Positions 34,683-54,846 of a stretch of DNA of 64,000 nucleotides are shown here, in pieces (within the stretch, counting starts at the first letter, position 1; every line of letters starts with the position of its first letter). The position numbers were made by a program, and so were the translations under genes. The stretch is from Pseudoxanthomonas suwonensis (GTDB lineage: Bacteria; Pseudomonadota; Gammaproteobacteria; Xanthomonadales; Xanthomonadaceae), in contig NZ_PDWP01000004.1 of the NCBI RefSeq assembly GCF_010093235.1, positions 62,001-126,000 of the forward strand, read 5' to 3'. Under the pieces are notes generated by a model. The model saw only the letters and a program-made list of their open reading frames with translations, ran no database searches and was not told where the DNA came from.

Positions 34683-35783
34683 TCACAGATCGCCGCAGGC
34701 CTCCAGCGGCAGGGGCTCGCCGGCCACGGCGCGGGCGATGGCCTGGTCCGCCGCCTCCACCTCGATCCCGTGCCGCGAATACCAGGCCGGATCGTAATAG
34801 CTGTGGGCGTAGCGGTCGCCGCTGTCGCACAGGATGGTCACGATCGAACCGCCCTGCCCCGCCTCGTGCATGGACTGCGCGGCGCGCAGCACGCCGACGA
34901 AGTTGGTGCCGGTCGAACCGCCGACGCGGCGCCCCAGCACCGCGCTGACGTGGCGCATTGCCGCCAGGCTCAGGGCATCGGGCACCCTGGCCATCGCGTC
35001 CACGCAGGACGGAATGAAGCTGGCCTCCACACGCGGCCGGCCGATGCCCTCGATGCGGGAACCGCCGGGCAGCGCCAGCGACGGATCGGCCTGCCCCTCC
35101 AGCGCGCCGCGGTAGTAGTCGTAGAACACCGAATGCTCCGGGTCGGCGCACAGCACGCGGGTGTCGTGGCGGCGGTAGCGCACGTAGCGTCCCAGGGTCG
35201 CGCTGGTGCCGCCGGTGCCCGGGCCGCACACGATCCATGCCGGCACCGGATGCGGTTCCTCGGCCATCTGCTTGAAGATGGACTCGGCGATGTTGTTGTT
35301 GGCGCGCCAGTCGGTGGCCCGTTCGGCGTAGGTGAACTGGTCCATGAAGTGGCCGCCGGTCTCGCGTGCCAGCCGGGCCGAAACCTCGTTGATCGTGCAT
35401 GGGCTGTCGACCAGGTGGCAGCGGCCGCCCTGGAACTCGATCGCCGCGATCTTCTCCGGCGAGGTCGAGGCCGGGATCACGGCGATGAAGGGCAGGCCCA
35501 GCAGCCGCGCGAAGTAGGCCTCCGACACCGCGGTCGAGCCGCTGGAGGCCTCGATCACCGTGCTGCCCTCGCGCAGCCAGCCATTGGCCAGCGCGTACAG
35601 GAACAGCGAGCGCGCCAGCCGGTGCTTGAGGCTGCCGGTGGGATGGCTGGATTCGTCCTTGAGGTAGACGTCGATGCCGGGATAGCCGGGCAGCGGCATC
35701 GGGATCAGGTGGGTATCGGCCGAACGGTTGAAGTCGGCCTCGATCTTGCGGATGGCGGCGGCCACCCACTCGCGCTGCGACAT
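34683..35783 (-). CDS. Cds1-like PLP-dependent cysteine synthase/desulfhydrase
   Basis: 366 residues of the fold-type II PLP family. The PLP lysine is K53 in [15 protein letters not shown], the substrate loop is [14 protein letters not shown], and the phosphate-binding loop is [14 protein letters not shown]. The C-terminal [19 protein letters not shown]-type segment (here [17 protein letters not shown]) is typical of the Cds1 subgroup, whose studied members break cysteine to pyruvate, sulfide and ammonia. It starts at 35783 (MSQREWV). Together with cbs and metB elsewhere in the window it adds to sulfur amino-acid metabolism. Cysteine synthase activity cannot be ruled out. Confidence 0.8.
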
Positions 35784-35888
35784 GGCGATCCACGGCGATG
35801 GAAAGGCCCGATTATCCGCCCCGCCACGCGCAACCGGAACCGGGCACGCCGTCGCCATCGCGACGGCGCGCCCGCCAGTGGCAACGGT

Positions 35889-36371
35889 TCAGTGCCGGGT
35901 GCGGCCGGCCATGGCGGGCCAGGCGTGCGGGAGCCGCGGCCCGCCACGCAGCCCGCGCAGGACCTCCACCAGTTCGCGGTAGCCCTCGGCCAGCTGGTCG
36001 AACAGCGCGGCGTAGGCGGCGCGGCTGGCCTCGGCCACCTCGCGGTAGGCGCCACGGCCGAGGTCGACGAAGTAGTCCACGCTCACCCGGCGGCGCGCGG
36101 CCCGGCCCGGGAACAGGCCGGCCACCAGCAGGCAGCGGTCACCCACGTCGCGCAGGGCATCGGCGCGCAGCCGCCCCACCTGCGCCTGGGCGTGCAGCCA
36201 GTCCAGCGCATGGGTATGCGCAAGAAGCCGGGCGTCGCCCTGGTAGCGCAGCAGCACGAACACCAGGTAGGCCTCTCGCGATTCATCCAGCGGGTGGCCG
36301 GTGCGTCCGGCCGCGTCCCGCACCAGCGCCTGCCACAGCTCGGCCGGCGCCCCCTGTTTCATCTCGAACAT
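35889..36371 (-). CDS. Conserved protein of unknown function
   Basis: 160 residues. The start at 36371 has AGGAGG upstream. It is predicted to be helical and soluble; visible features are YLVFVLLRYQGD, GDRCLLVAGLFPGRAARRRVS and VDYFVDLGRGAYREVAEA. I do not recognise a named family, though proteins with this LLVAGLFP pattern seem widespread in Proteobacteria. It begins 112 bp after the end of mksB on the same strand, so it could share that transcript, and ends 105 bp before the Cds1-like start. Confidence 0.75.
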   Translation of the reverse strand: MFEMKQGAPAELWQALVRDAAGRTGHPLDESREAYLVFVLLRYQGDARLLAHTHALDWLHAQAQVGRLRADALRDVGDRCLLVAGLFPGRAARRRVSVDYFVDLGRGAYREVAEASRAAYAALFDQLAEGYRELVEVLRGLRGGPRLPHAWPAMAGRTRH

Positions 36372-36483
36372 GTCTTCCTCCTGCCATGAAGACAGGTTCG
36401 AGGCTAGTACTGTCCGGCGCGCCGTGCTGGCAGCCGCCCGGGCCGAGTGCCAGCCAGGGCAGGCCTTCCGTTCAGCGACGTGG

Positions 36484-39400
36484 TCAGGTCGTCGCGCCGG
36501 TCTCCCGCGCCAGCCGCTCCAGCTCCTCGGCCAGCAGCTCCGGATGCAGGTCGAACTGGTCGGACAGCAGCAGCTCGCGCGCCGCCTCCTTGACCTCGAT
36601 CCGTTCGGCCTGGAGCAGGTCGCCATCGCGGAACAGCTCGATGTAGCTGTCCAGCACGCCCGACAACGTGCCCTGCGCGGTGTCCGGCGCCGCCAGCACC
36701 AGCTGCAGGCCCAGCGAGCGCAGGTAGTTGGTGGTGGCGCGGGCGTTCTGGGCGTCGATCTTGTCGCCGAACTCGTCCAGCAGGATCACGCCGATGCCGC
36801 CCGGATGCGCCTCGCTCTTGCCGTAGGCCGCGGCCAGCGCTGCACCGGCGATCACGTACAGCGGCGCGCGGTGCTCGCCACCGGAGCCCGAGCGCATGCG
36901 CTCGCTGAGGGTGCCGATCACCCGGTCGTCCTGGCGGATCTCCACGCCGAAGTGGAAGAAACGGCGGTAGTCGTCCAGCGGGGAGGCGGCCAGCTTCGCG
37001 CTGGCGCTGTCCTCGATCAGCTGGCGGAACGCCTCCGGGACCTCGCCGGCGGTGCCGAACAGGGTGTCCTCGGCGCCGACGTCGGCCACCTTCTGGATGA
37101 AGCGGTGCAGGTCGCGGTACTCGGCCACCACCTCGTAGTGGAAGCGGTAGCGCTCGTTGTTGGAGAACGCCGGGCTGTTGCGCAGGGTGCGGTTGAGCGC
37201 GTCGATCTGCGCCTTCAGCCGCACGAAGTTGTCGTGCAGGGTGTTGGCGACGTTGGAGCGGAAGGTCTCCACCGCGGTTTCGTAGGCGCGGTCGGCCTCG
37301 GCGCGGTAGTTGACCAGCTCGGTTTCGCGCAACTGCACCAGCTCGCGCTGCATCAGCGCGCGCGCCGGCTTCCATGCGTCGGCGGCGAAATCCAGGTCCA
37401 GGCCATGGCTGCCGGCATAGCGCTGCAGCTGGCTCCAGGCCTCCGGCAGCAGCGAGGCCAGCTGGCGGTCGTTGTCCTGGGCGCGGCGTTCGCACAGGTT
37501 GCGCGCTTCTTCCAGGCCGGTGCCCTTCGCCTCCAGCTCCTCGCGCAGCTGCTCGACCCGGTTGGGATCGACGTGCGGATCGCGGAAGGCCTCGACCGCG
37601 TTGCGGGCGACGATCTCCTCCTGCGCCTGCAGCGCGCGCAGCAGCGCCTGGCGCCGCTCCAGTTCGCCCTGGGCCAGGGCCTCGGCGCGCACCAGCGACT
37701 CGATCGTGGACTCGGCCTTCTGCACCTGCGCCTTCAGCGCGGTGGCGCGCTCGCCCAGGCGCAGCAGGTCGGGGTCGACCGCGTCGGCGTGGCTGCGCTC
37801 CAGCGCCTGGTAACGGGCCAGCACCTGGCGGTACTGCAGCAGCAGCCCGTGCAGGCCGCGGGCGACGTCGTCGCCGTCCAGCCGCGCCCGCTTCTGCCGC
37901 AGCGCCTCGGCGCGGCGCGCCTCCGGCTCGCACTGGCGCAGCTCGCGCTCGGCGTTCTCCAGCTCGGCGCGCAGCAGGCGCAGGCGCTCGCCGTCCTGGG
38001 CCACGCCGATCTTCAGCTCGCCGCTGGACGGCAGGCGCCGTCGCTCGATGCCGCCGCCCTTGGCCACCAGGCCGTCGCGGGTCAGGCCCTGGCGCGTGCG
38101 CACCACCTCGGCCTCGGTCTCGACACAGCGCAGGTCGCCAAGCTGGCGGCGCAGGTACGCCACCGCATCGGCGTTGTCGCCCTCGATGAGGGCGGCGACG
38201 CTGTCCTCGGCCAGGCGCTCCTGGCGATGGCTGCGGGCCTGGCTGGGCAGGGCCAGCTTCACCCCGTAGACGGCGCGGGCGCCCTGCAGCGAACGATAGA
38301 CGCGCACCGCGTCCTCTTCGCGTCCGGCCGGCACCAGCAGGGCCTCGACATGGCTGCGCAGGTAGGCCTCGATCGCCGGCTGCCAGCGCTTGTCGGTGAC
38401 CCGCACCAGGTCGCACACCGGCTGCGCCTCGATCCCGGCCTCGCGCAGGTGGTTCACCAGGCGCATGACCTCGTCGCGCAGGTTGGCCTGGCCGGCGTCC
38501 AGGCGCTGCTGGTTGCCGCGCGCGGCGTCGCGGCGCGCACGCGCCAGCTGCCAGGCTTCGTGCGACTGCCGCGCCCAGGCGGCAACCGTGGCCTGCACCG
38601 GCGCGGCAGCGGCCAGGGCCTGCTTCAGGCGCGCATGGAACACTTCGGGCGCGGGGCCCTCGCCATCGCCATCGGCGGCAGCCGCCACTTCGTCGCGCAG
38701 CTCTTCCAGCGGCCCCAGCGCCCTGGCCAGGCCAGCCTCGTCCACGCCCGGCAGGCGCAGCGCGGCCAGTTCCTGCAGCGGTTCGCGCAGATGTTCCAGG
38801 CGACGCAGCAGGTCGGACTGCAGGCGCTGCAGCTGCTCGCGGTCGCGCCCGGCCAGTTCGCGGAACGAGGCCTGTTCGCCATAGCCGGCGCTGCCCTGCA
38901 GCTGCTCGCGGACGCGTTCGTATTCCTCCTGCAGGCTGCGCCGCTCGGCGCGCGCCTGCTCCAGCGCCAGGCCGGCGGCGGCCAGCTCCTCGCGGCCGGC
39001 ATCGCAGTCCGACTGCGCCTGCTCGACCTGCTCGCCGAGCAGGTCGCGGGCGTATTCGGCCGCCAGCGCGCGGTAGGAGGCGGCACGCTGGGCCTGCGCG
39101 GCGACCTTGCCGTACTGCGCGTCCACCGCCTCGGCCTCGGCGATGCGCCGTTCAAGCTGCTCGATGCGTTCCTTGATCTGGCGGAAGCTGTCCAGCAGCG
39201 CCTTGAAGCGGGCAATGTCGGTAGGCCGGTCCTCGGCCACCAGGGTGCGCACGAACAGGTCCACGTCCTCGACGCGCTGCAGGTTGAGCGCGTTCTGGAA
39301 GGCCTTGCGGTAGGCGTTGAAGTCCACGCCGGCGCCGCTGCCGGGACGCAGGCGGTGCAGCAGGTCCTTGACGAAGCGCTCGCCACTGGCGTGGAACTCC

Positions 39401-39912
39401 GGCGTGGTGCCGGCCTTGCGGCAGCGTTTGGCGGCCAGCTCGCGGAAGCGGCTCCACTCCAGCGGCAGCTCGCGGCCGTCGACCTTCTCCAGGTGGTCTT
39501 CCAGCTCCAGGGCCACGCCCGGCAGCAGGAACAGGCCGTGCTGGCGATGCTCGGGCTCGTCTACCGAGGCGCCCAGCGAAATGCCCGCGGTCAGCGGGGT
39601 ACCGGTCTCCTCGTCGCGGAACACCAGGGTCACGTAGGTGGTGGCGGTGCGCCGCTTGCGACCGTCCTCGCCACTGCGGTACACGCCCAGGCAGTAGTCG
39701 CGGATGCTGCGCGCACGCGCCTTGCCGCCGGCCTGGGCATTGAAGTGGATATGGCGGCGGTCGCCGCCGAGAAGGACCAGCTGCAGCGCGTCCAGCAGCG
39801 CGCTCTTGCCCGCGCCGTTGGGCGCGATGATGGCCGACGTGCGGTCCAGCTGCAGGGTCTTGGCCTCGAACAGGAAGTACTGCACGAGGTGCATGCGCTC
39901 AAGCAGCTGCAT
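36484..39912 (-). CDS. mksB: SMC-like condensin ATPase MksB/JetC
   Basis: 1142 residues. Walker A is IIAPNGAGKSALLD (G33-S37), the ABC signature region is SGSGGEHR (1008-1015), and Walker B is GVILLDEFGDK (1041-1051, catalytic E1047). Between the heads are two long coiled coils (about 230-420 and 690-960) with a hinge-like region around 480-610. This is the MukB/MksB/JetC architecture. The ATG at 39912 has GGAGG upstream and overlaps mksE by 14 bp. It should form a DNA loop-extruding complex with the two upstream gene products. Confidence 0.88.
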   Translation of the reverse strand: MQLLERMHLVQYFLFEAKTLQLDRTSAIIAPNGAGKSALLDALQLVLLGGDRRHIHFNAQAGGKARARSIRDYCLGVYRSGEDGRKRRTATTYVTLVFRDEETGTPLTAGISLGASVDEPEHRQHGLFLLPGVALELEDHLEKVDGRELPLEWSRFRELAAKRCRKAGTTPEFHASGERFVKDLLHRLRPGSGAGVDFNAYRKAFQNALNLQRVEDVDLFVRTLVAEDRPTDIARFKALLDSFRQIKERIEQLERRIAEAEAVDAQYGKVAAQAQRAASYRALAAEYARDLLGEQVEQAQSDCDAGREELAAAGLALEQARAERRSLQEEYERVREQLQGSAGYGEQASFRELAGRDREQLQRLQSDLLRRLEHLREPLQELAALRLPGVDEAGLARALGPLEELRDEVAAAADGDGEGPAPEVFHARLKQALAAAAPVQATVAAWARQSHEAWQLARARRDAARGNQQRLDAGQANLRDEVMRLVNHLREAGIEAQPVCDLVRVTDKRWQPAIEAYLRSHVEALLVPAGREEDAVRVYRSLQGARAVYGVKLALPSQARSHRQERLAEDSVAALIEGDNADAVAYLRRQLGDLRCVETEAEVVRTRQGLTRDGLVAKGGGIERRRLPSSGELKIGVAQDGERLRLLRAELENAERELRQCEPEARRAEALRQKRARLDGDDVARGLHGLLLQYRQVLARYQALERSHADAVDPDLLRLGERATALKAQVQKAESTIESLVRAEALAQGELERRQALLRALQAQEEIVARNAVEAFRDPHVDPNRVEQLREELEAKGTGLEEARNLCERRAQDNDRQLASLLPEAWSQLQRYAGSHGLDLDFAADAWKPARALMQRELVQLRETELVNYRAEADRAYETAVETFRSNVANTLHDNFVRLKAQIDALNRTLRNSPAFSNNERYRFHYEVVAEYRDLHRFIQKVADVGAEDTLFGTAGEVPEAFRQLIEDSASAKLAASPLDDYRRFFHFGVEIRQDDRVIGTLSERMRSGSGGEHRAPLYVIAGAALAAAYGKSEAHPGGIGVILLDEFGDKIDAQNARATTNYLRSLGLQLVLAAPDTAQGTLSGVLDSYIELFRDGDLLQAERIEVKEAARELLLSDQFDLHPELLAEELERLARETGATT

Positions 39913-40561
39913 GGTCGTCCTCCGCGTCCAGGGTGTCGGCGTCGCCATCGGGGTCGCCTTCGGCATCGGGCCCGCCGCCGCCCAGGTTGTGCTGGTCCAG
40001 GCGGTGCAGCCACTGCTCGCCGACGATGTCCACGATCGCCGGCCGCACCACCAGGTGGAACGGCTGCAGGTCGTCCGGCTCGCCCTCGACCAGGCGGCAC
40101 ACGCCCCAGCGGCGCGCGGTGGCGGCCAGCGCGCGCAGCGCGCCGACCTCAGGCATCGGCCGCCCGGTCAGCGCCGGCCAGGCCTCCTGCAGGTCCGGCA
40201 GCTCGACCACCACCTCGCCCAGCTCCTCGACCAGGCCCTGCTTCATGCCCTCGTCGTAGCGCTGGCGCAGGACCAGCAGCAGCAGGGTTTCGTCCAGGCG
40301 CACCGGCGTGCCCTCGCCGCGCTTGGGCAGGGCGACCACGTAGCGGTGGTGGGCGTTGCGCTCCAGGCGGATGCCCAACGGGTCCAGCGCGGAGGCGAAG
40401 TCCTCGAGGTAGGCCTCCACCAGGTGGTAGGCGCTGCGCGAGCGCGCATCGCTGGCGTACAGCACCTGCTCGGTGACCAGGCGGTAGGCGGCGCGCTCGA
40501 AGTCGGCCACAGCGTACATGCCGTTGGACTGCTGGCTGAGGGTGTTCCAGGAACGTTTCAT
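39899..40561 (-). CDS. mksE: MksE/JetB-like kite subunit (DUF4194)
   Basis: 220 residues of the DUF4194 (JetB/MksE) type: an N-terminal winged-helix region with AAYRLVTEQVLYASDARSRSAYHLV, the conserved LDETLLLLVLRQRYDE, and an acidic disordered tail (GDPDGDADTLDAEDDHAAA). It bridges the kleisin MksF to the SMC. Its start overlaps the mksF stop (ATGA at 40558-40561) and its end overlaps mksB, showing a tightly coupled three-gene unit. Confidence 0.88.
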   Translation of the reverse strand: MKRSWNTLSQQSNGMYAVADFERAAYRLVTEQVLYASDARSRSAYHLVEAYLEDFASALDPLGIRLERNAHHRYVVALPKRGEGTPVRLDETLLLLVLRQRYDEGMKQGLVEELGEVVVELPDLQEAWPALTGRPMPEVGALRALAATARRWGVCRLVEGEPDDLQPFHLVVRPAIVDIVGEQWLHRLDQHNLGGGGPDAEGDPDGDADTLDAEDDHAAA

Positions 40562-42051
40562 GCGGGATCGGGCTCGGCCTGCGCGCTGGCGCGCGCGGCA
40601 TTGGAAGCGGAGGGGCCGCGGCCTGCGGCGTGGTGGACGACGAAGCGTGGCGCGCGCAGCCAGCCGTTGTCGCCCGGCTCGCCGCCGTCGACCAGTTCGA
40701 CGCGGAAGCCGCGCAGCAGGCGGTTGAGCGGGTCGTCGCGACGCAGGCCGCCGGGGCGGCTGCCACGCAGGGCCAGGGTCAGCAGGGTCTGGTAGGCGCG
40801 CAGGTCCTGGATGGTCGCGATATCCAGCTTTTCCGAGTCGACGCTGCCGCCGGCCGGCAGCTGGCGGCCGACGTAGGAGGCCATGTCCTCGGCGGTGACC
40901 AGGCGCACCCGCTTCATCCGCCGCAGCAGGCTCAGCCGCGCGATCTGCTCGGCGCTGGGCTGGGCATTGCTGTTTGCGCTGCGCGGGATCGGCTGCGGAC
41001 GGCGGCGCGGCGCACGCAGCTGAGTCTCGTCCATCAGCCCACCCGGACCGACCGGCATGCGCAGCGCGTTCTCGTCGGCGGCCAGCGCACCCCTGGCGGC
41101 GCGGTGCAGCAGCACGTCCAGGCGGTCCGGCGCGCGCAGGCGGTAGTCGAGGAAGGCCAGCGCGCGGCGGTTGGCCTGGCGCATGTCCTCGTCCAGGCGT
41201 GCGAGGTACTCATCGATGCGCTCCAGCTCGCGCAGGCGCATCAGGCTGCGCTGCAGCAGCTGGCGGGCACGGGCATCGTCGCCCTCGGCCACGTGCTCGC
41301 GGTACCAGGCGGCGATGTCCTCGCGCAGCGGGCCGTTCTCGATCTCCTGCACCATCAGCAGGATCTGCGCGCGCCGCGCCAGCGGGTGGTCGGCGCGGTG
41401 CAGGTCGGCGTAGTCGCGGATGAAGAACTGGGCCACGTAGCGCTCGAACCACTGCCGCGCGAACTGGGCGGTGGTCTCCGAGCGCACCAGCTCGGGCATC
41501 AGGTCGCGCACCTGCAGGCTCATCGAGGCCAGCGAGGACAGCAGCCGGCGCGCCTGTTCGGCCGCCTCGTCCAGCGCCTCGCCGCCGGCGCGGCGGTCGA
41601 CAACCTGCTGCAGCTGCAGCTCGATCGAACGGATCTTGGCCGAAACGAAAGTGGGACCGCGATCGGCGAACTCCACCAGGGTGCCCAACAGCTGGGCCAG
41701 GGCCGGTGGCATCAGCACCATCTCGCGCGCGCCGAGCTTGTCCTGGCGCAGCCAGCCGGCCTGGCGCAGGCGGTCGTACACGGCGGCCGCGCGCGCGGCC
41801 AGGCCGCCCTGCAGCGGGGCGTCGCCCTCGTCCTCCCAGGTCTCCTCGGCCAGCAGGTAGCGCTCCAGCGCGGCGACGATCTCGCGCCGGGCGAAGCCAT
41901 GGCTGGGCGGCAGCGGCGCGTCCGGGCCGAAGTACTCGTCGAACAGCCGGCACAGCAGGCGCCAGTAGCGCTCGCGGTTGGGCGAGGCCAGCGGCCCGAA
42001 GGCGCCGGCCGGCACATGCGCGAACAGGGACGGGAACGCGGTACTGCTCAA
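40558..42051 (-). CDS. mksF: MksF/JetA-like kleisin subunit
   Basis: 497 residues if the TTG at 42051 is the start (AGGA 7 nt upstream; family members begin close to FPSLFAHVPAGAFGPLASPNRERYW). An ATG at 42111 would add 20 unlikely residues and has no good Shine-Dalgarno. N-terminal and C-terminal winged-helix-like regions flank a helical middle (SLASMSLQVRDLMPELVRS), consistent with a JetA/MukF-like kleisin. It leads the mksF-mksE-mksB operon and is divergent from the metE riboswitch. Confidence 0.85.
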   Translation of the reverse strand: MSSTAFPSLFAHVPAGAFGPLASPNRERYWRLLCRLFDEYFGPDAPLPPSHGFARREIVAALERYLLAEETWEDEGDAPLQGGLAARAAAVYDRLRQAGWLRQDKLGAREMVLMPPALAQLLGTLVEFADRGPTFVSAKIRSIELQLQQVVDRRAGGEALDEAAEQARRLLSSLASMSLQVRDLMPELVRSETTAQFARQWFERYVAQFFIRDYADLHRADHPLARRAQILLMVQEIENGPLREDIAAWYREHVAEGDDARARQLLQRSLMRLRELERIDEYLARLDEDMRQANRRALAFLDYRLRAPDRLDVLLHRAARGALAADENALRMPVGPGGLMDETQLRAPRRRPQPIPRSANSNAQPSAEQIARLSLLRRMKRVRLVTAEDMASYVGRQLPAGGSVDSEKLDIATIQDLRAYQTLLTLALRGSRPGGLRRDDPLNRLLRGFRVELVDGGEPGDNGWLRAPRFVVHHAAGRGPSASNAARASAQAEPDPA

Positions 42052-42131
42052 GCGGGAATCCTGCCGGGCGCCAGGCCCGGATCGGCCGCCATTTTCCCAG
42101 ATCGGCGCCATGCCCGTGCAGGCGGCGGCGG

Positions 42132-44981: not shown

Positions 44982-46814
<1,833 letters not shown>

Positions 46815-46980: not shown

Positions 46981-47047
46981 CCAGTGTCCGCCCGTCCGCC
47001 CCCGGACGGTGTCCGCCCGGCTGTCCGGCGGACGCCCCGGACACTGG
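46981..47047 (+). promoter_or_regulatory. Clustered TGTCCG/CGGACA inverted repeats, likely enhancer sites for the NtrC-type regulator
   Basis: A perfect 10-bp inverted repeat (CCAGTGTCCG at 46981-46990, CGGACACTGG at 47038-47047) encloses further half-sites: CGTCCG 46993, CGGACG 47003, TGTCCG 47010, TGTCCG 47022 and CGGACG 47029. They lie about 70-130 bp before the predicted transcription start, the usual place for activator sites of sigma-54 promoters. The binding protein is inferred to be the response regulator encoded at 52155-53489. Confidence 0.6.
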
Positions 47048-47086
47048 GGCGCCGTGCAGGAAACCTTTCAAATCAACAGCCTGCAG

Positions 47087-47102
47087 TTGGCACGGGACCT
47101 GC
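47087..47102 (+). promoter_or_regulatory. Sigma-54 (RpoN) type promoter
   Basis: TTGGCAC and TGCA elements have the diagnostic GG (47089-47090) and GC (47101-47102) separated by exactly 10 bases, matching the -24/-12 consensus (TGGCACG-N4-TTGC). The predicted start is about 47114, and the adaptor gene begins at 47140. The operon carries its own sigma-54 activator. Confidence 0.7.
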
Positions 47103-47139
47103 AACAGGGAGACCGGACACCCATGCCACACGGACCCAC

Positions 47140-48411
47140 ATGATCCCCGACACCTCCGCCCAGGACCGCCCCCTCTCCCACGCCGGCCAGCCCCCGGCCT
47201 GGCGCCGCTGGCTGCTGCCGGCCGCCGCCGCCGCGGGTGTCCTGGTCCTTGCCGGCTGGGTGGTCTCCGGCTGGAGCGCCGGTGCGCGCTCCTACGACGC
47301 CTCGCGCCTGCGCATCGCCGAGGTGAAGCGCGGCGACCTGGTCCGCGACCTGTCCGCCGACGGGCGGGTGATCACCGCCAACAGCCCGGTGCTCTACGCC
47401 ATCGCCGGCGGCACAGTGTCGCTGCAGGTGGTGGCCGGCGACGTGGTGGAGAAGGGACAGGTGCTGGCGGTGATCGACAGCCCCGAGCTGCGCAGCAAGC
47501 TGGTCCAGGAGGAATCGACCCTGGCAAGCATGGAGGCCGAGGCCAGCCGCGCGCAGCTGGACGCGCGCATCGCCAGCCTCAACGCGCACAAGGCGCGCGA
47601 CCAGGCCCAGATCGACCACACCGCCGCGCAGCGCGACCTGGAGCGCTACGAGCGCGCCCATGCCGGCGGCGCGGTGTCCAACAACGAGCTGGCCCGCGCC
47701 CAGGACGAGCTGAAGAAGGCCCAGATCGGACTGGAGGCCGCGCGCAACGACGCCCGGCTGCAGGAACAGGGCGCGGCGCTGGATGCGCGCAACAAGCGCC
47801 TGCTGGCCGACCGCCAGAAGGCGGTGGTGGAGGAGCTGCGCCGCCAGGTGGACCTGCTGACCCTGCGCGCGCCGTTCGACGGCCAGGTCGGCCAGGTGCA
47901 GGTCTCGCAGGGCACCAACGTGGCGGTCAACGCGCCGATCCTCAGCGTGGTGGACCTGAGCGAGTTCGAGGTCGAGATCCGCGTGCCGGAGAGCTTCGCC
48001 CGCGACCTGGGCATCGGCGTGCCGGCGCAGGTCACCAGCCAGGGCAAGGCGTGGCCGGCCAAGGTCTCGGCGGTGTCGCCGGAAGTGGTCAACGGCGAGG
48101 TCACCGCGCGCCTGCGCTTCGAGGAGGGCCAGCAGCCGCCGGGCCTGCGCCAGAACCAGCGCCTGTCCAGCCGCATCGTGCTGGATACCCGCAAGAACGT
48201 GCTGATGGTCGAGCGTGGCCCGTTCGTCGAGCAGGGCGGCGGCAACTACGCCTGGGTCGTGGACGGACGCAGCGCCGTGCGCCGCCCGGTGCAGACAGGC
48301 GCCAGCAGCCTCGGCTACGTCGAGATCGTCTCCGGCGTCCAGGAGGGCGAGCGGATCGTGGTCTCCGGCGCCGACCAGTTCGGCGAGGCAGAGAGAGTGG
48401 CCATCAATTGA
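47140..48411 (+). CDS. HlyD/MacA-like periplasmic adaptor protein
   Basis: 423 residues with one N-terminal membrane helix (WLLPAAAAAGVLVLAGWVVSG). Then come the halves of a lipoyl domain (VSLQVVAGDVVEKGQVLAVID and LTLRAPFDGQVGQVQVSQG), split by a long coiled-coil hairpin (about 120-230), a beta-barrel domain, and a membrane-proximal domain. This is the membrane-fusion protein layout of RND or MacA-type exporters. It is the first gene after the sigma-54 promoter. The ATG at 47140 has no good Shine-Dalgarno of its own and overlaps the stop of a 6-codon ORF. No outer-membrane channel gene is nearby. Confidence 0.85.
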   Translation: MIPDTSAQDRPLSHAGQPPAWRRWLLPAAAAAGVLVLAGWVVSGWSAGARSYDASRLRIAEVKRGDLVRDLSADGRVITANSPVLYAIAGGTVSLQVVAGDVVEKGQVLAVIDSPELRSKLVQEESTLASMEAEASRAQLDARIASLNAHKARDQAQIDHTAAQRDLERYERAHAGGAVSNNELARAQDELKKAQIGLEAARNDARLQEQGAALDARNKRLLADRQKAVVEELRRQVDLLTLRAPFDGQVGQVQVSQGTNVAVNAPILSVVDLSEFEVEIRVPESFARDLGIGVPAQVTSQGKAWPAKVSAVSPEVVNGEVTARLRFEEGQQPPGLRQNQRLSSRIVLDTRKNVLMVERGPFVEQGGGNYAWVVDGRSAVRRPVQTGASSLGYVEIVSGVQEGERIVVSGADQFGEAERVAIN

Positions 48412-48417
48412 TGGCCA

Positions 48418-48445
48418 GTGATTGGTGATTCGGGATTCGTGATTC
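48418..48445 (+). repeat. Four inverted heptamers facing the 12-unit array
   Basis: GTGATTG, GTGATTC, GGGATTC, GTGATTC lie right after the adaptor stop codon. They are the reverse complement of the heptamers at 48492-48575, so the mRNA can fold into a long hairpin across the intercistronic gap. Confidence 0.8.
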
Positions 48446-48491
48446 GTAACAGCAGAAGCAACTGCCACCCGCTCACTCCCGGCCACCAGGC

Positions 48492-48575
48492 GAATCACCA
48501 ATCACCAATCACCAATCACCAATCACCAATCACCAATCACGAATCACCAATCACCAATCACGAATCACGAATCAC
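48492..48575 (+). repeat. 12-unit heptanucleotide tandem array (SAATCAC)
   Basis: Exactly twelve 7-bp units of GAATCAC or CAATCAC (order G C C C C C C G C C G G) fill 84 bp and end immediately before the AAGGAG Shine-Dalgarno of the ABC ATPase gene. Such arrays can change copy number by slippage. The inverted half array at 48418-48445 can pair with it. Confidence 0.92.
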
Positions 48576-48587
48576 AAGGAGCTTCCG

Positions 48588-49298
<711 letters not shown>

Positions 49299-49308
49299 GG
49301 AAGCCGCC

Positions 49309-50610
49309 ATGTTCGCCTACTACTTCAACCTCGCCCTGCGCAGCTTCCGCCGCGACAAGGCCCTGACGATGCTGATGGTGCTGGCCATCGCCCTGGGCAT
49401 CGGCGCGTGCATGACCACGCTGACCGTGTTCCACGTGCTGTCCGGCGACCCGATCCCCTCCAAGAGCAGCCGCCTGTTCTACGTGCAGCTGGACGCGGCG
49501 GCAATGCAGGGCTACGAGCCCGGCGACGAACCCCAGGAGCAGGTCACCCGCCTGGACGCCGAAACCCTGCTGCGCGAAAAGCGCGGCGACCGCCAGGCGA
49601 TGATGACCGGCGGCAGCGTCGTGGTGACGCCGGACCGCGAGGGCGTGGTCCCGTTCAATGCAGGGGCCCGCTTCACCTCCGCCGACTTCTTCCCGATGTT
49701 CGACGTACCCATGCTTTACGGTCGCGGCTGGAGCGCGAACGAGGACGAGGCGCGCGCCCGGGTCGCGGTGATCTCCAGCGCGCTGAACGAGCGCGTGTTC
49801 GGCGGCGGCGACAGCGTGGGCAAGCAGCTCCGGCTGGACCAGGGCGACTTCACCGTGGTCGGCGTGGTCGGCGACTGGCGCCCGGTGCCGCGCTTCTACG
49901 ACATGAACAGCGACCGCTACGGCAAGCTGGAAGACGTGTTCGTCCCGTTCCAGACCGCGGTCGCGATGAAGATGGACCGCTCCGGAAGCATGGACTGCTG
50001 GGGCTCGAGCAACGGCGACGAGATGGGACTGGGCGCGCCTTGCGTCTGGATCCAGTACTGGGTGGAGCTGGCCGATCCGTCCAGGGTCTCCGAGTACCGC
50101 AACTACCTGGCCAACTACTCCGACCAGCAGCGCGCGGCCGGGCGTTTCGAGCGCCCGACCAACGTGCGCCTGCGCAGCGTCATGGAGTGGCTGGAGTTCA
50201 AGCGCGTGGTGCCCAACGACGTGGTGATGCAGCTGTGGCTGGGCCTGGGCTTCCTGCTGGTGTGCCTGGTGAACACGGTCGGGCTGCTGCTGGCCAAGTT
50301 CCTGCGCCGTGGCAGCGAGATCGGCGTGCGTCGCGCCCTGGGCGCCTCGCGCCAAGCGATCTTCAGCCAGTGCCTGGTCGAGGCCGGCACCGTGGGCCTG
50401 GTCGGCGGCATCCTCGGCCTGGGCCTTTCCCTGCTCGGCCTGTGGGCGGTGCGCCAGCAGCCGGCCAGCTACGCCGAGCTCGCCCACCTGGACCTGCGAA
50501 TGCTGGTCTTCACCTTCGTCCTGGCCATCGCCGCCAGCGTGCTGGCCGGTCTGCTGCCGGCCTGGCGCGCGATGCAGGTGACCCCCGCCATCCAGCTCAA
50601 GAGCCAGTGA
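49309..50610 (+). CDS. FtsX-type ABC permease, first of two
   Basis: 433 residues in the MacB-type layout: one membrane helix at the N terminus (ALTMLMVLAIALGIGACMTTL), a large periplasmic MacB-like core domain (about 45-280, DFTVVGVVGDWRP), then three helices in the FtsX domain (LWLGLGFLLVCLVNTVGLLL and GSEIGVRRALGASRQAIF). The RRALGAS loop contacts the ATPase. It lacks its own ATPase domain, unlike MacB. It pairs with the next permease. Substrate unknown: efflux or mechanotransmission are the two known roles of the family. Confidence 0.9.
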   Translation: MFAYYFNLALRSFRRDKALTMLMVLAIALGIGACMTTLTVFHVLSGDPIPSKSSRLFYVQLDAAAMQGYEPGDEPQEQVTRLDAETLLREKRGDRQAMMTGGSVVVTPDREGVVPFNAGARFTSADFFPMFDVPMLYGRGWSANEDEARARVAVISSALNERVFGGGDSVGKQLRLDQGDFTVVGVVGDWRPVPRFYDMNSDRYGKLEDVFVPFQTAVAMKMDRSGSMDCWGSSNGDEMGLGAPCVWIQYWVELADPSRVSEYRNYLANYSDQQRAAGRFERPTNVRLRSVMEWLEFKRVVPNDVVMQLWLGLGFLLVCLVNTVGLLLAKFLRRGSEIGVRRALGASRQAIFSQCLVEAGTVGLVGGILGLGLSLLGLWAVRQQPASYAELAHLDLRMLVFTFVLAIAASVLAGLLPAWRAMQVTPAIQLKSQ

Positions 50611-50646
50611 CGGCCCGGTCCGCCACCCGCACAACGGAGACCACCC

Positions 50647-51879
50647 ATGGACATCCGCCCCATCCTTTCCACCCTGCTGCGGCACAAGACCGCGGCTTCC
50701 CTGATCGTGGTCGAGATCGCCCTGACCTGCGCGATCATCTGCAATGCGCTGTTCCTGATCAGCGACCGCCTGGCCGAGGTCCGCCAGCCCAGCGGCATCG
50801 CCGAGGAAGAGCTGGTCCGGGTCCAGGTCGAGGGCATCGGCAGCGACCCCGACGAGGTGGCGCGTACCCGCAGCGACCTGGCCACGCTCCGCGCCCTGCC
50901 CGGCGTGAAGAACGCGACGGTGATGAACCAGATGCCGTTCACCCGCTCGTCCTGGAACACCGGCGTGCGCCTGAGCCTGGAACAGCAGCGCAGCACCCTG
51001 CTGGCCTCGATCTACCTGGGCGACGACCAGATGCTGGAAACGCTCGGCGTGCAGCTGGTCGCCGGGCGCACCTTCAACCCGGAGGAGTACATCGAGTACA
51101 ACGACGCGCAGTCGGCGGACTACGAGGGCGGCATGCCGGCGGTCATCATCACCCGTTCCATGGCCCAGCGCCTGTTCCCGGGCGAGGACCCGATCGGCAG
51201 GACGATCTACGCGTGGGGCGACCTGCCGATCCCGGTGGTCGGGGTGATCGACCGCCTGATCCGCCCCGCCGGCGTCGGCGGACCCGAAGCCGCCCACTAT
51301 TCGATGATCTTCCCTGTGCGCCCGCACTATGCGGTCAGCGGCGAATACCTGATCCGCACCACCCCCGAGCGGCGCCAGGAAGTGCTGGAGGCGGCGGTAC
51401 GGACCCTTCGCGCCGGCGGTAACGACCGCATCGTGGAGGACGAGGACACCGGCACGATCGAGGACATGCGCCGCGAGTATTTCCAGGCCCCGCGCTCGAT
51501 GGCCTGGCTGCTGGCCATCGTCTGCGTGGCCCTGCTGCTGATCACCGCGCTGGGCATCATCGGCCTGGCCAGCTTCTGGGTGCAGCAGCGGACCAAGCAG
51601 ATCGGCATCCGCCGGGCCCTTGGCGCCACCAGCGGGCAGATCCTGCGCTACTTCCAGACCGAGAACTTCCTGCTGGCCACCATCGGCATCGGACTGGGCA
51701 TGCTGCTGGCGTTCGCCATCAACCAGGTGCTGATGGGCAGGTACGAACTGGCGCGCCTGCCGCTGTACTACCTGCCCACCGGCGCGGTGCTGCTGTGGCT
51801 GCTGGGCCAGCTGGCGGTCTATGCACCGGCGCGGCGCGCCGCCTCGATCCCGCCTGCCACCGCCACCCGCAGCGTATGA
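50647..51879 (+). CDS. FtsX-type ABC permease, second of two
   Basis: 410 residues with the same four-helix MacB-type plan: an N-terminal helix (TAASLIVVEIALTCAIICNALFL region), a periplasmic domain, and the FtsX domain with WVQQRTKQIGIRRALGATSGQIL. Upstream and downstream permeases form a heterodimer in such operons. Its stop codon overlaps the start of a small gene (ATGA, 51876-51879), which is therefore co-translated. The two permeases are clearly homologous over the FtsX part. Confidence 0.9.
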   Translation: MDIRPILSTLLRHKTAASLIVVEIALTCAIICNALFLISDRLAEVRQPSGIAEEELVRVQVEGIGSDPDEVARTRSDLATLRALPGVKNATVMNQMPFTRSSWNTGVRLSLEQQRSTLLASIYLGDDQMLETLGVQLVAGRTFNPEEYIEYNDAQSADYEGGMPAVIITRSMAQRLFPGEDPIGRTIYAWGDLPIPVVGVIDRLIRPAGVGGPEAAHYSMIFPVRPHYAVSGEYLIRTTPERRQEVLEAAVRTLRAGGNDRIVEDEDTGTIEDMRREYFQAPRSMAWLLAIVCVALLLITALGIIGLASFWVQQRTKQIGIRRALGATSGQILRYFQTENFLLATIGIGLGMLLAFAINQVLMGRYELARLPLYYLPTGAVLLWLLGQLAVYAPARRAASIPPATATRSV

Positions 51880-52118
51880 ATCGCAACCTGCGCCAACGGA
51901 AGGCGCCCGGCGCCGGCACCACGCCCTGGTACGCGCTGGCGGTGGGGGCGCTGACCGCCGCCTGGCTCGCCGCGATCCCGCGGCCAGCCAGGGTCGCCGC
52001 CACCGCTCCGGCGGCGCTCCCCTCGACCGCGGCCGCGCCGGGGACAGCGGCGGTTCCGGGGGCTCCCCGCCCGTACGACATCCCGTCCGGCCGCGAACGC
52101 CGGGCCGGGAACAGGTAG
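51876..52118 (+). CDS. Small membrane-anchored protein of unknown function
   Basis: 80 residues starting at an ATG that overlaps the permease stop (ATGA). A single hydrophobic segment (WYALAVGALTAAWLAAIP, about 18-35) is preceded by Arg/Lys residues and followed by a Pro/Ala-rich tail of about 40 residues, as in a small type II membrane protein with a periplasmic tail. There is no recognisable Shine-Dalgarno, which fits translational coupling. The next gene begins 37 bp later. I do not recognise a family; it may be a small subunit or regulator of the transporter (inference). Confidence 0.6.
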   Translation: MNRNLRQRKAPGAGTTPWYALAVGALTAAWLAAIPRPARVAATAPAALPSTAAAPGTAAVPGAPRPYDIPSGRERRAGNR

Positions 52119-52154
52119 CCTTTGCCGTCCGCCCAAGGAATCCGCGCCCCATCC

Positions 52155-53489
<1,335 letters not shown>

Positions 53490-53499
53490 GGCCGTGCCC

Positions 53500-54846
53500 A
53501 TGAGGATCCGCCGCAGCCTGTTCCTGCGCCTGTTCGTCCGCCTGCTGCCGGTCCTGGCCTTGGCGGCCGCGCTGCCCTGGACCTTCGCCTACTGGATCAA
53601 CCACGGCTGGGTGATCGCCGCCATTTCCACCACGATCGTGCTCCTGCTGGCCTGGTGGAGCCTGCGACGCGCACTGGCGCCGCTGAACTCGCTGTTCCGC
53701 GCCATCGCCGGCAGCGTCAACACCTACCGCGACGGCGAGTTCAACTTCGGCATCCACTGGCACAGCAACGACGAGATCGGCGAACTGGTACGCGCCCATG
53801 CCGAGCTGGGCGAAGTGCTGCGCCGGCAACGCCAGGACCTGGTCCAGCGCGAGCTGCTGCTGGATACCATGGTCCAGAACACGCCGGTGGCCATGGTCCT
53901 GTGGGCCGACGGCGGCGACGGAGTGCCACGGGTGGTGTATGCCAACCTGGCCGCCCGCAAGCTGCTCAACGACGGACGCAAGCTGGAAGGCCAGCGCATG
54001 GACGCGGTGCTGGAGGGCCTGCCGGCGGAGCTGCGCGAAGCGGTGGCGCGCGGCGGCGACAGCCTGTTCGGGGTCAGCCCGGAAGGTGCGGAGGACGAGG
54101 ACGCGGAGGAAGAGGTCTACCACCTCTCGCGCCGGCGCTTCACCCTCAATGGCCGCCACCACGAACTGCTGCTGCTGCGACTGCTGACCCCCGAACTGCG
54201 CCGCCAGGAGGTGCAGACCTGGAAGAAGGTGATCAGGGTGATCAGCCACGAGCTCAACAACTCGCTGGCGCCGATCGCCTCGCTGGCCCACTCCGGCGCC
54301 GAGCTGGTGCGGCGCGGCCGCCACGAGCGCCTGGCCGAGGTGTTCTCCACCATCGAGGACCGTGCCCGCCACCTGGAGGGCTTCATCCGTGGCTACGCGC
54401 GCTTCGCCAAGCTGCCGCAGCCGCAGCTGCAGGCGGTGGACTGGGGCGATTTCCTGGCGCGGCTGCAGCGCCAGATCAGCTTCGAGCTGGACGGCATGGC
54501 CGCGGACCTGCGTGCCAGGGTCGATCCGGCGCAGATGGAGCAGGCGCTGCTCAACCTGCTGAAGAACGCCCACGAGGCTGGCGAGGAAGCGGGCAATCCC
54601 CAGGTCGAGGTGCGCCTGCGGCGGCTGCCCGGCTGGACCCGGCTGGAGGTGCTGGACCGTGGCCCCGGCATGAACGAGGCGGTGCTGCAGAACGCGCTGC
54701 TGCCGTTCTATTCGACCAAGCGCAATGGCACCGGCCTGGGCCTGGCCCTGTGCCGGGAGATCGTCGAGGCGCACGGTGGCCGGCTGTCGCTGCAGAACCG
54801 CGCCGAAGGCGGCCTGTGCGTGGCGGTGATGCTGCCGGAGCAGTGA
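53500..54846 (+). CDS. Sensor histidine kinase, NtrB/NtrY-like
   Basis: 448 residues from the ATG at 53500 (GAGG 8 nt upstream; a GTG at 53494 is too close to it). Two N-terminal membrane helices with a very short periplasmic loop (about 15-55), a HAMP-like linker, a PAS-like domain (about 120-220) and the kinase core follow. H250 is in VISHELNNSLAPIASLAHSG, the N box is LLNLLKNAHEAG, and the G boxes are DRGPGMNE and GTGLGLAL. The short periplasmic loop suggests that it senses through the membrane or the transporter rather than a ligand-binding domain. It starts 10 bp after the regulator gene. Confidence 0.92.
   Translation: MRIRRSLFLRLFVRLLPVLALAAALPWTFAYWINHGWVIAAISTTIVLLLAWWSLRRALAPLNSLFRAIAGSVNTYRDGEFNFGIHWHSNDEIGELVRAHAELGEVLRRQRQDLVQRELLLDTMVQNTPVAMVLWADGGDGVPRVVYANLAARKLLNDGRKLEGQRMDAVLEGLPAELREAVARGGDSLFGVSPEGAEDEDAEEEVYHLSRRRFTLNGRHHELLLLRLLTPELRRQEVQTWKKVIRVISHELNNSLAPIASLAHSGAELVRRGRHERLAEVFSTIEDRARHLEGFIRGYARFAKLPQPQLQAVDWGDFLARLQRQISFELDGMAADLRARVDPAQMEQALLNLLKNAHEAGEEAGNPQVEVRLRRLPGWTRLEVLDRGPGMNEAVLQNALLPFYSTKRNGTGLGLALCREIVEAHGGRLSLQNRAEGGLCVAVMLPEQ

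Follow-up and report, generated by a model that had tools for sequence, protein, structure and literature searches.

In Pseudoxanthomonas suwonensis, a segment at positions 46981–47140 of a 64-kb window (the whole stretch of DNA analysed, taken from contig NZ_PDWP01000004.1 of a 3.42 Mb genome) is very probably the enhancer and sigma-54 promoter of an operon that specifies a MacA/FtsX-type ATP-binding cassette (ABC) exporter together with its own two-component system. The switch is conserved and is probably operated by the regulator encoded in the same operon. An earlier reading made from the DNA alone (the original prediction) had proposed a sigma-54 promoter with activator sites in front of an operon carrying its own regulator. 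Conservation among relatives supports that proposal; the binding and feedback that go with it are what we infer.

The promoter, TGGCACGGGACCTGCA at 47088–47103 on the plus strand, contains the GG-N10-GC arrangement of the -24/-12 element of sigma-54 promoters. GG at 47089–47090 and GC at 47101–47102 are separated by exactly 10 bases within TTGGCACGGGACCTGCA. When sigma-54 sites on both strands of the window were ranked by a weighted consensus score, this site scored highest (15.0; runner-up 14.5), in agreement with the RpoN-type element originally claimed. From the position of the -12 element it follows that transcription would start at approximately 47113–47115. The ATG of the first gene, encoding a periplasmic adaptor, lies downstream of the promoter at 47140. 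Since the genome has two Sigma54_DBD genes (G000:C33:58967–59437 and G000:C25:17248–17709), the comparison of wild type with a single rpoN mutant that had been suggested may mislead.

Upstream of the promoter is a presumed activator binding region (46985–47043, no strand assigned), identified from sequence, shuffles and conservation. It is composed of seven half-sites of the form YGTCCG/CGGACR, where Y or R is tolerated at the outer base: TGTCCG (46985–46990), CGTCCG (46993–46998), CGGACG (47003–47008), TGTCCG (47010–47015), TGTCCG (47022–47027), CGGACG (47029–47034) and CGGACA (47038–47043). The last of these, on the minus strand, starts 50 bp before the TGG at 47088 and is the steadiest in position. 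As a chance estimate, half-sites were counted per 80 bp in 5000 dinucleotide shuffles; the mean was 0.49 and none of the shuffles reached the seven found here. The runner-up 80-bp stretch of the window holds three. With the relaxed outer base, the seven half-sites of the original prediction are all recovered. The perfect 10-bp inverted repeat that it also described does exist (CCAGTGTCCG / CGGACACTGG at 46981–46990 / 47038–47047); however, the 47 nt separating its arms make a single operator improbable, and the repeat was rejected in this role as it is not conserved among relatives. Short inverted repeats are abundant in this G+C-rich region.

The half-site spacing of 10–13 bases put forward at first is not the conserved feature either. 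What is conserved is the position of the proximal CGGAC, which in both promoter sets considered here starts most commonly 49–51 bp before TGG. Many Stenotrophomonas loci have TGTCCG-N6-TGTCCGCGGACA-N2-CGGACA as their core. From 407 half-site instances around the fixed GTCCG core, an extended half-site GTGTCCGC was derived, in which a T precedes the core in 84% of instances, a G precedes that T in 64% and a C follows the core in 64%.

Relatives were collected by regulator similarity in one scan, from which the best 80 of 527 loci were kept. Among these, the window's regulator is closest to those of Pseudoxanthomonas, sharing 94% identity with that of Pseudoxanthomonas sp. J31. The adaptor gene was detected in the fetched DNA of 70 of the 80 loci; the remaining 10 comprise nine with six permease matches in the stretch and one (L044) that starts at a contig end. 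When the DNA before the aligned start of the adaptor was searched for [TG]GGCA[CT]-N6-[TC]GC, a sigma-54 site was present in all 71 regions (70 loci and the window). Two of the 71 had less than 130 bp further upstream and were left out of the array count; the other 69 all have 4–8 half-sites in that interval. As a control, at least four half-sites were present in 5 of 13,373 random windows from the same loci. Array and promoter accompany the operon across Xanthomonadaceae, four betaproteobacterial loci and one Kofleriaceae metagenome-assembled genome, and the operon layout is common to three Massilia loci, one Herbaspirillum locus and the Kofleriaceae genome.

The operon itself runs on the plus strand from 47140 to 54846 in the order adaptor, ATPase, permease, permease, regulator and kinase. 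The adaptor is of the membrane fusion protein (MFP)/HlyD type (47140–48411; TIGR01730, 134.4 bits, cut-off 94.9) and is followed by an ABC ATPase (48588–49298; PF00005, 112 bits), two MacB_PCD/FtsX permeases matched by Pfam (49309–50610 and 50647–51879), an NtrC-type sigma-54 response regulator (52155–53489, with a frame open from 52122 and the ATG at 52155 as the preferred start) and a histidine kinase (53494–54846). The domain matches confirm that the operon ends in an NtrC-type regulator and a kinase, as had been predicted. For the regulator, a receiver (PF00072), a sigma-54 interaction AAA+ domain (PF00158) and a Fis-type helix-turn-helix (PF02954) were all above cut-off, and a GAYTGA loop of the GAFTGA type was found in 80 of 81 regulators. 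Assignment as the PEP-CTERM regulator PrsR was rejected (TIGR02915, 326.4 bits against a curated cut-off of 502.6). In a family-level set of 149 genomes, which also served for the counts of trmL and XAC0231-like genes given below, the regulator was detected in 127. The adaptor and ATPase genes are separated by a tandem AATCACC repeat of about 12 copies (48493–48575), and the divergent neighbour of the operon is a gene with GATase and SIS domains (44982–46814).

Among the 70 loci, each has one ATPase match and one adaptor match, and the permease matches between adaptor and regulator number two in 53, three in 10 and four in seven. The permeases may be interchangeable within one exporter. Two to three or more tandem FtsX permease pairs precede the regulator in L029, L030, L032, L037, L062, L070 and L082, as well as in L035, L046, L049, L061, L069, L074, L078, L080 and L087. 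In three loci scanned, secreted-looking proteins are encoded between permease and regulator, with DUF4440 (L024, L031), DUF3471 (L031) and PDZ (L038) domains. In the window, an 80-codon open reading frame (ORF; 51876–52118, plus strand) with no Pfam match overlaps the permease stop where some relatives encode the secreted DUF4440 protein and is perhaps a remnant.

The kinase is predicted to have two N-terminal membrane helices with a very short loop, a weak PAS domain and a HATPase domain. The two hydrophobic stretches with few residues between them recur, as judged by hydropathy only, in 78 of 80 kinases including that of the window (4–13 residues between the 17-residue windows), with L033, whose kinase is truncated, left out of the count. 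Intramembrane-sensing histidine kinases are by definition devoid of any other sensor domain. The short loop agrees with this class, but the kinase was rejected as a member owing to a PAS_8 match of 23.1 bits, just above the cut-off of 21.8, which makes cytoplasmic sensing a possibility.

The array is located before the exporter operon, as had been claimed, but it is not restricted to it. Seven strict sigma-54 sites were found in the genome, two of which are preceded by seven half-sites each within 130 bp; for the remaining five the counts are 0, 0, 0, 1 and 0, and the flagellar-type sites hold 0–1. The second array-bearing site (L103, G000:C10:6371–6434) precedes a gene for a protein of 136 residues that begins with a signal-like N terminus and contains internal repeats (LPAVEVRP), and trmL is next. 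The protein has no Pfam match. It matches the XAC0231 family (NF052303) over residues 1–121 with 73.9 bits and, since the curated cut-off is 140, is labelled XAC0231-like only. Relatives are present in 33 of the 149 family genomes; promoter and array were found at 28 of the 30 loci returned, and trmL is inside the locus in all 30.

In other genomes, such a promoter stands before genes for other short proteins whose N termini are hydrophobic. Twenty further promoter sites were picked by eye among the matches listed in a family-wide scan. Fourteen of them lead into an ORF of 64–108 codons, with a hydrophobic N terminus evident in nearly all and frequently following the pattern H-x-x-L-x-R-x-L-x-ALPLL. 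Another two (L178, L179) lead into a hydrophobic leader in frame with trmL (ORF of 205–209 codons), and four precede exporter genes (L168, L180, L183, L187). In one of the latter, L180 (G110:C32:28300–31500), the promoter is followed by an adaptor-like start whose reading frame runs on into kinase sequence, and no other part of the operon is present there. Overall, trmL is nearby at 11 of the 20 sites. Among 100 further genomes, such a promoter lies within 1.3 kb before trmL in 12, the sequence from G088 being only 170 bp. In three genomes (G005:C24, G035:C2 and G057:C2) trmL is the immediate upstream neighbour of the exporter promoter, and the target loci adjoin there.

With respect to further targets, pattern counts over the genome were compared with a reversed-pattern control, and the sigma-54 patterns were used for listing candidates and not as proof. 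A scan for spaced half-site pairs alone, which the original prediction had recommended, lacked specificity, with 16 places found and 7 for the reversed pattern. Sigma-54-like sites were sought near the 15 loci that it returned (L001–L015); apart from the operon, these gave only loose matches, and the two that were inspected (L010, L012) resemble coding sequence. Combining half-site and sigma-54 pattern produced five matches against three in the control. As the operon was counted twice, four distinct sites remain, two of which, before ribosomal protein genes (L104) and flagellar genes (L105), were rejected. Two other sites were not counted as targets, one preceding flagellar rod-type genes (L193) and one with no listed ORF directly downstream (L188). 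Targets are separated only by sigma-54 pairing plus half-site count.

Several results weigh against a switch operated by the operon's own regulator at both targets. The strict sigma-54 pattern matches 7 places in the genome and 10 in the reversed control, so that the weight is carried by the pairing with the array and by conservation. A further sigma-54 pattern gave 9 matches against 27, and the family-wide pattern occurs in 148 of 149 genomes, its control giving comparable counts. A single dimer spacing was rejected, as the distances between forward and reverse half-sites vary across relatives, and no source of basal regulator expression was found. The promoter is absent from two of the 30 XAC0231-like loci (L112, L125). 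In addition, the trmL-side promoter tracks the presence of the regulator only weakly and not as a strict dependence: it is found in 47 of the 121 regulator-bearing genomes and in 4 of the 20 in which no regulator was detected (Fisher p = 0.13; G115, with a partial trmL match, and seven of the 149 genomes with no trmL match were left out). The tie of this target to the regulator thus rests on the shared array and not on co-occurrence.

The strongest competing explanation, rated just short of an even chance, is that the small secreted protein is merely co-expressed for envelope stress and is unrelated to the exporter. The shared promoter type is the sole link between the two, and only certain lineages have the trmL-side target (51 of 141 genomes). 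Two indirect arguments stand against this explanation: the array is common to many genera, and trmL adjoins the operon promoter in G005, G035 and G057. It is improbable that a different NtrC-type activator encoded in the genome occupies the array while the operon's own regulator acts elsewhere. The trmL-side promoters in four genomes with no detected regulator (G004, G027, G110, G136) would fit such an activator, but these assemblies are split into 30 to 300 contigs, so a regulator may have been missed. The array also precedes the operon in each of the 69 relatives whose sequence extends far enough, in a set collected by the regulator, and the low half-site counts at flagellar-type sites argue in the same direction. 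Finally, although the region is G+C-rich with many short inverted repeats and genome pattern counts are no higher than controls, a chance origin of half-sites and promoter is practically negligible given the shuffles, the conservation in 71 homologous regions and the fixed position of the proximal half-site.

Binding by the operon's regulator, activation and positive feedback are the most probable reading of these sequences. The kinase, with almost nothing outside the membrane, would respond to a signal within or at the membrane by phosphorylating the NtrC-type regulator. The regulator may then assemble on the TGTCCG/CGGACA array and contact sigma-54 polymerase through DNA looping and its GAYTGA loop. 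The exporter would be switched on along with more regulator and kinase, giving positive feedback, and the small secreted protein elsewhere (here XAC0231-like, beside trmL) would very likely be activated by the same regulator. The shared switch hints that exporter and small protein may be functionally tied.

Sigma-54 control of FtsX-type permeases has already been predicted statistically. In the accessible part of a 2025 survey of sigma-54 regulons (PMC12316311), sigma-54 promoters are enriched at FtsX-type ABC permeases (COG0577) in gammaproteobacteria, Opitutia and Bacteroidia. That part names no activator, operator, kinase or small-protein target, in contrast to the present analysis, and the words 'Xanthomonad' and 'Lysobacter' are absent from the main text. 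The Bce-type modules of Firmicutes, as far as the accessible text describes them (PMC10314905), likewise have an FtsX-type permease ABC transporter adjoining a two-component system, with a kinase that has no dedicated outside sensor and a module that raises its own transporter. The layout here is similar but differs in two permeases plus an MFP adaptor, an NtrC-type regulator, sigma-54 and a PAS match in the kinase. It is conceivable, if rather unlikely, that the system is a sigma-54-wired Gram-negative counterpart of Bce. A membrane-hairpin kinase would then read the working state of the MacA/FtsX exporter, which in relatives has multiplied permease pairs, and would switch on the exporter and fast-changing small secreted proteins, its cargo or partners.

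A MacA/MacB-type exporter beside a two-component system is also described for MacABCsm/MacRS of Stenotrophomonas maltophilia in the accessible portion of that report (PMC10295115); here, the two-component genes close the operon. Compared to MacAB structures (5nik, 5gko, 5lil), permease 1 aligns to MacB over approximately 120 C-terminal residues (best E 3.9e-10), whereas ATPase and permeases are separate genes. Assignment as a MacAB macrolide exporter was rejected since the ATPase and both permeases are below the MacB equivalog cut-off of 966 and the ATPase is unfused. A scan of the six operon proteins revealed no channel gene. Literature searched by title and opening abstract, mostly outside subscription journals, did not name this regulator, operator or second target, and a search on the half-site motif with a response regulator and on XAC0231, with most subscription journals outside it, found nothing.

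Elsewhere in the window, a putative Wadjet-type region spans 34683–42111 on the minus strand. It includes the defence gene JetA (40558–42111; Pfam PF18982, PADLOC JetA) followed on the same strand by ORFs of fitting size at 39899–40561, 36484–39966 and 34683–35858, which are JetB–D candidates by size only.

Mechanistically, the switch is of an ordinary kind; its value comes from how deeply it is conserved and from a second target that was not expected. An uncharacterised exporter and an uncharacterised XAC0231-like secreted family are joined into one testable regulon in many Xanthomonadaceae, for which an operator motif and its position are supplied. A concrete activator and promoter are thereby offered for the statistically predicted link between sigma-54 and FtsX exporters, and the exporter gains candidates for its natural substrates or partners.
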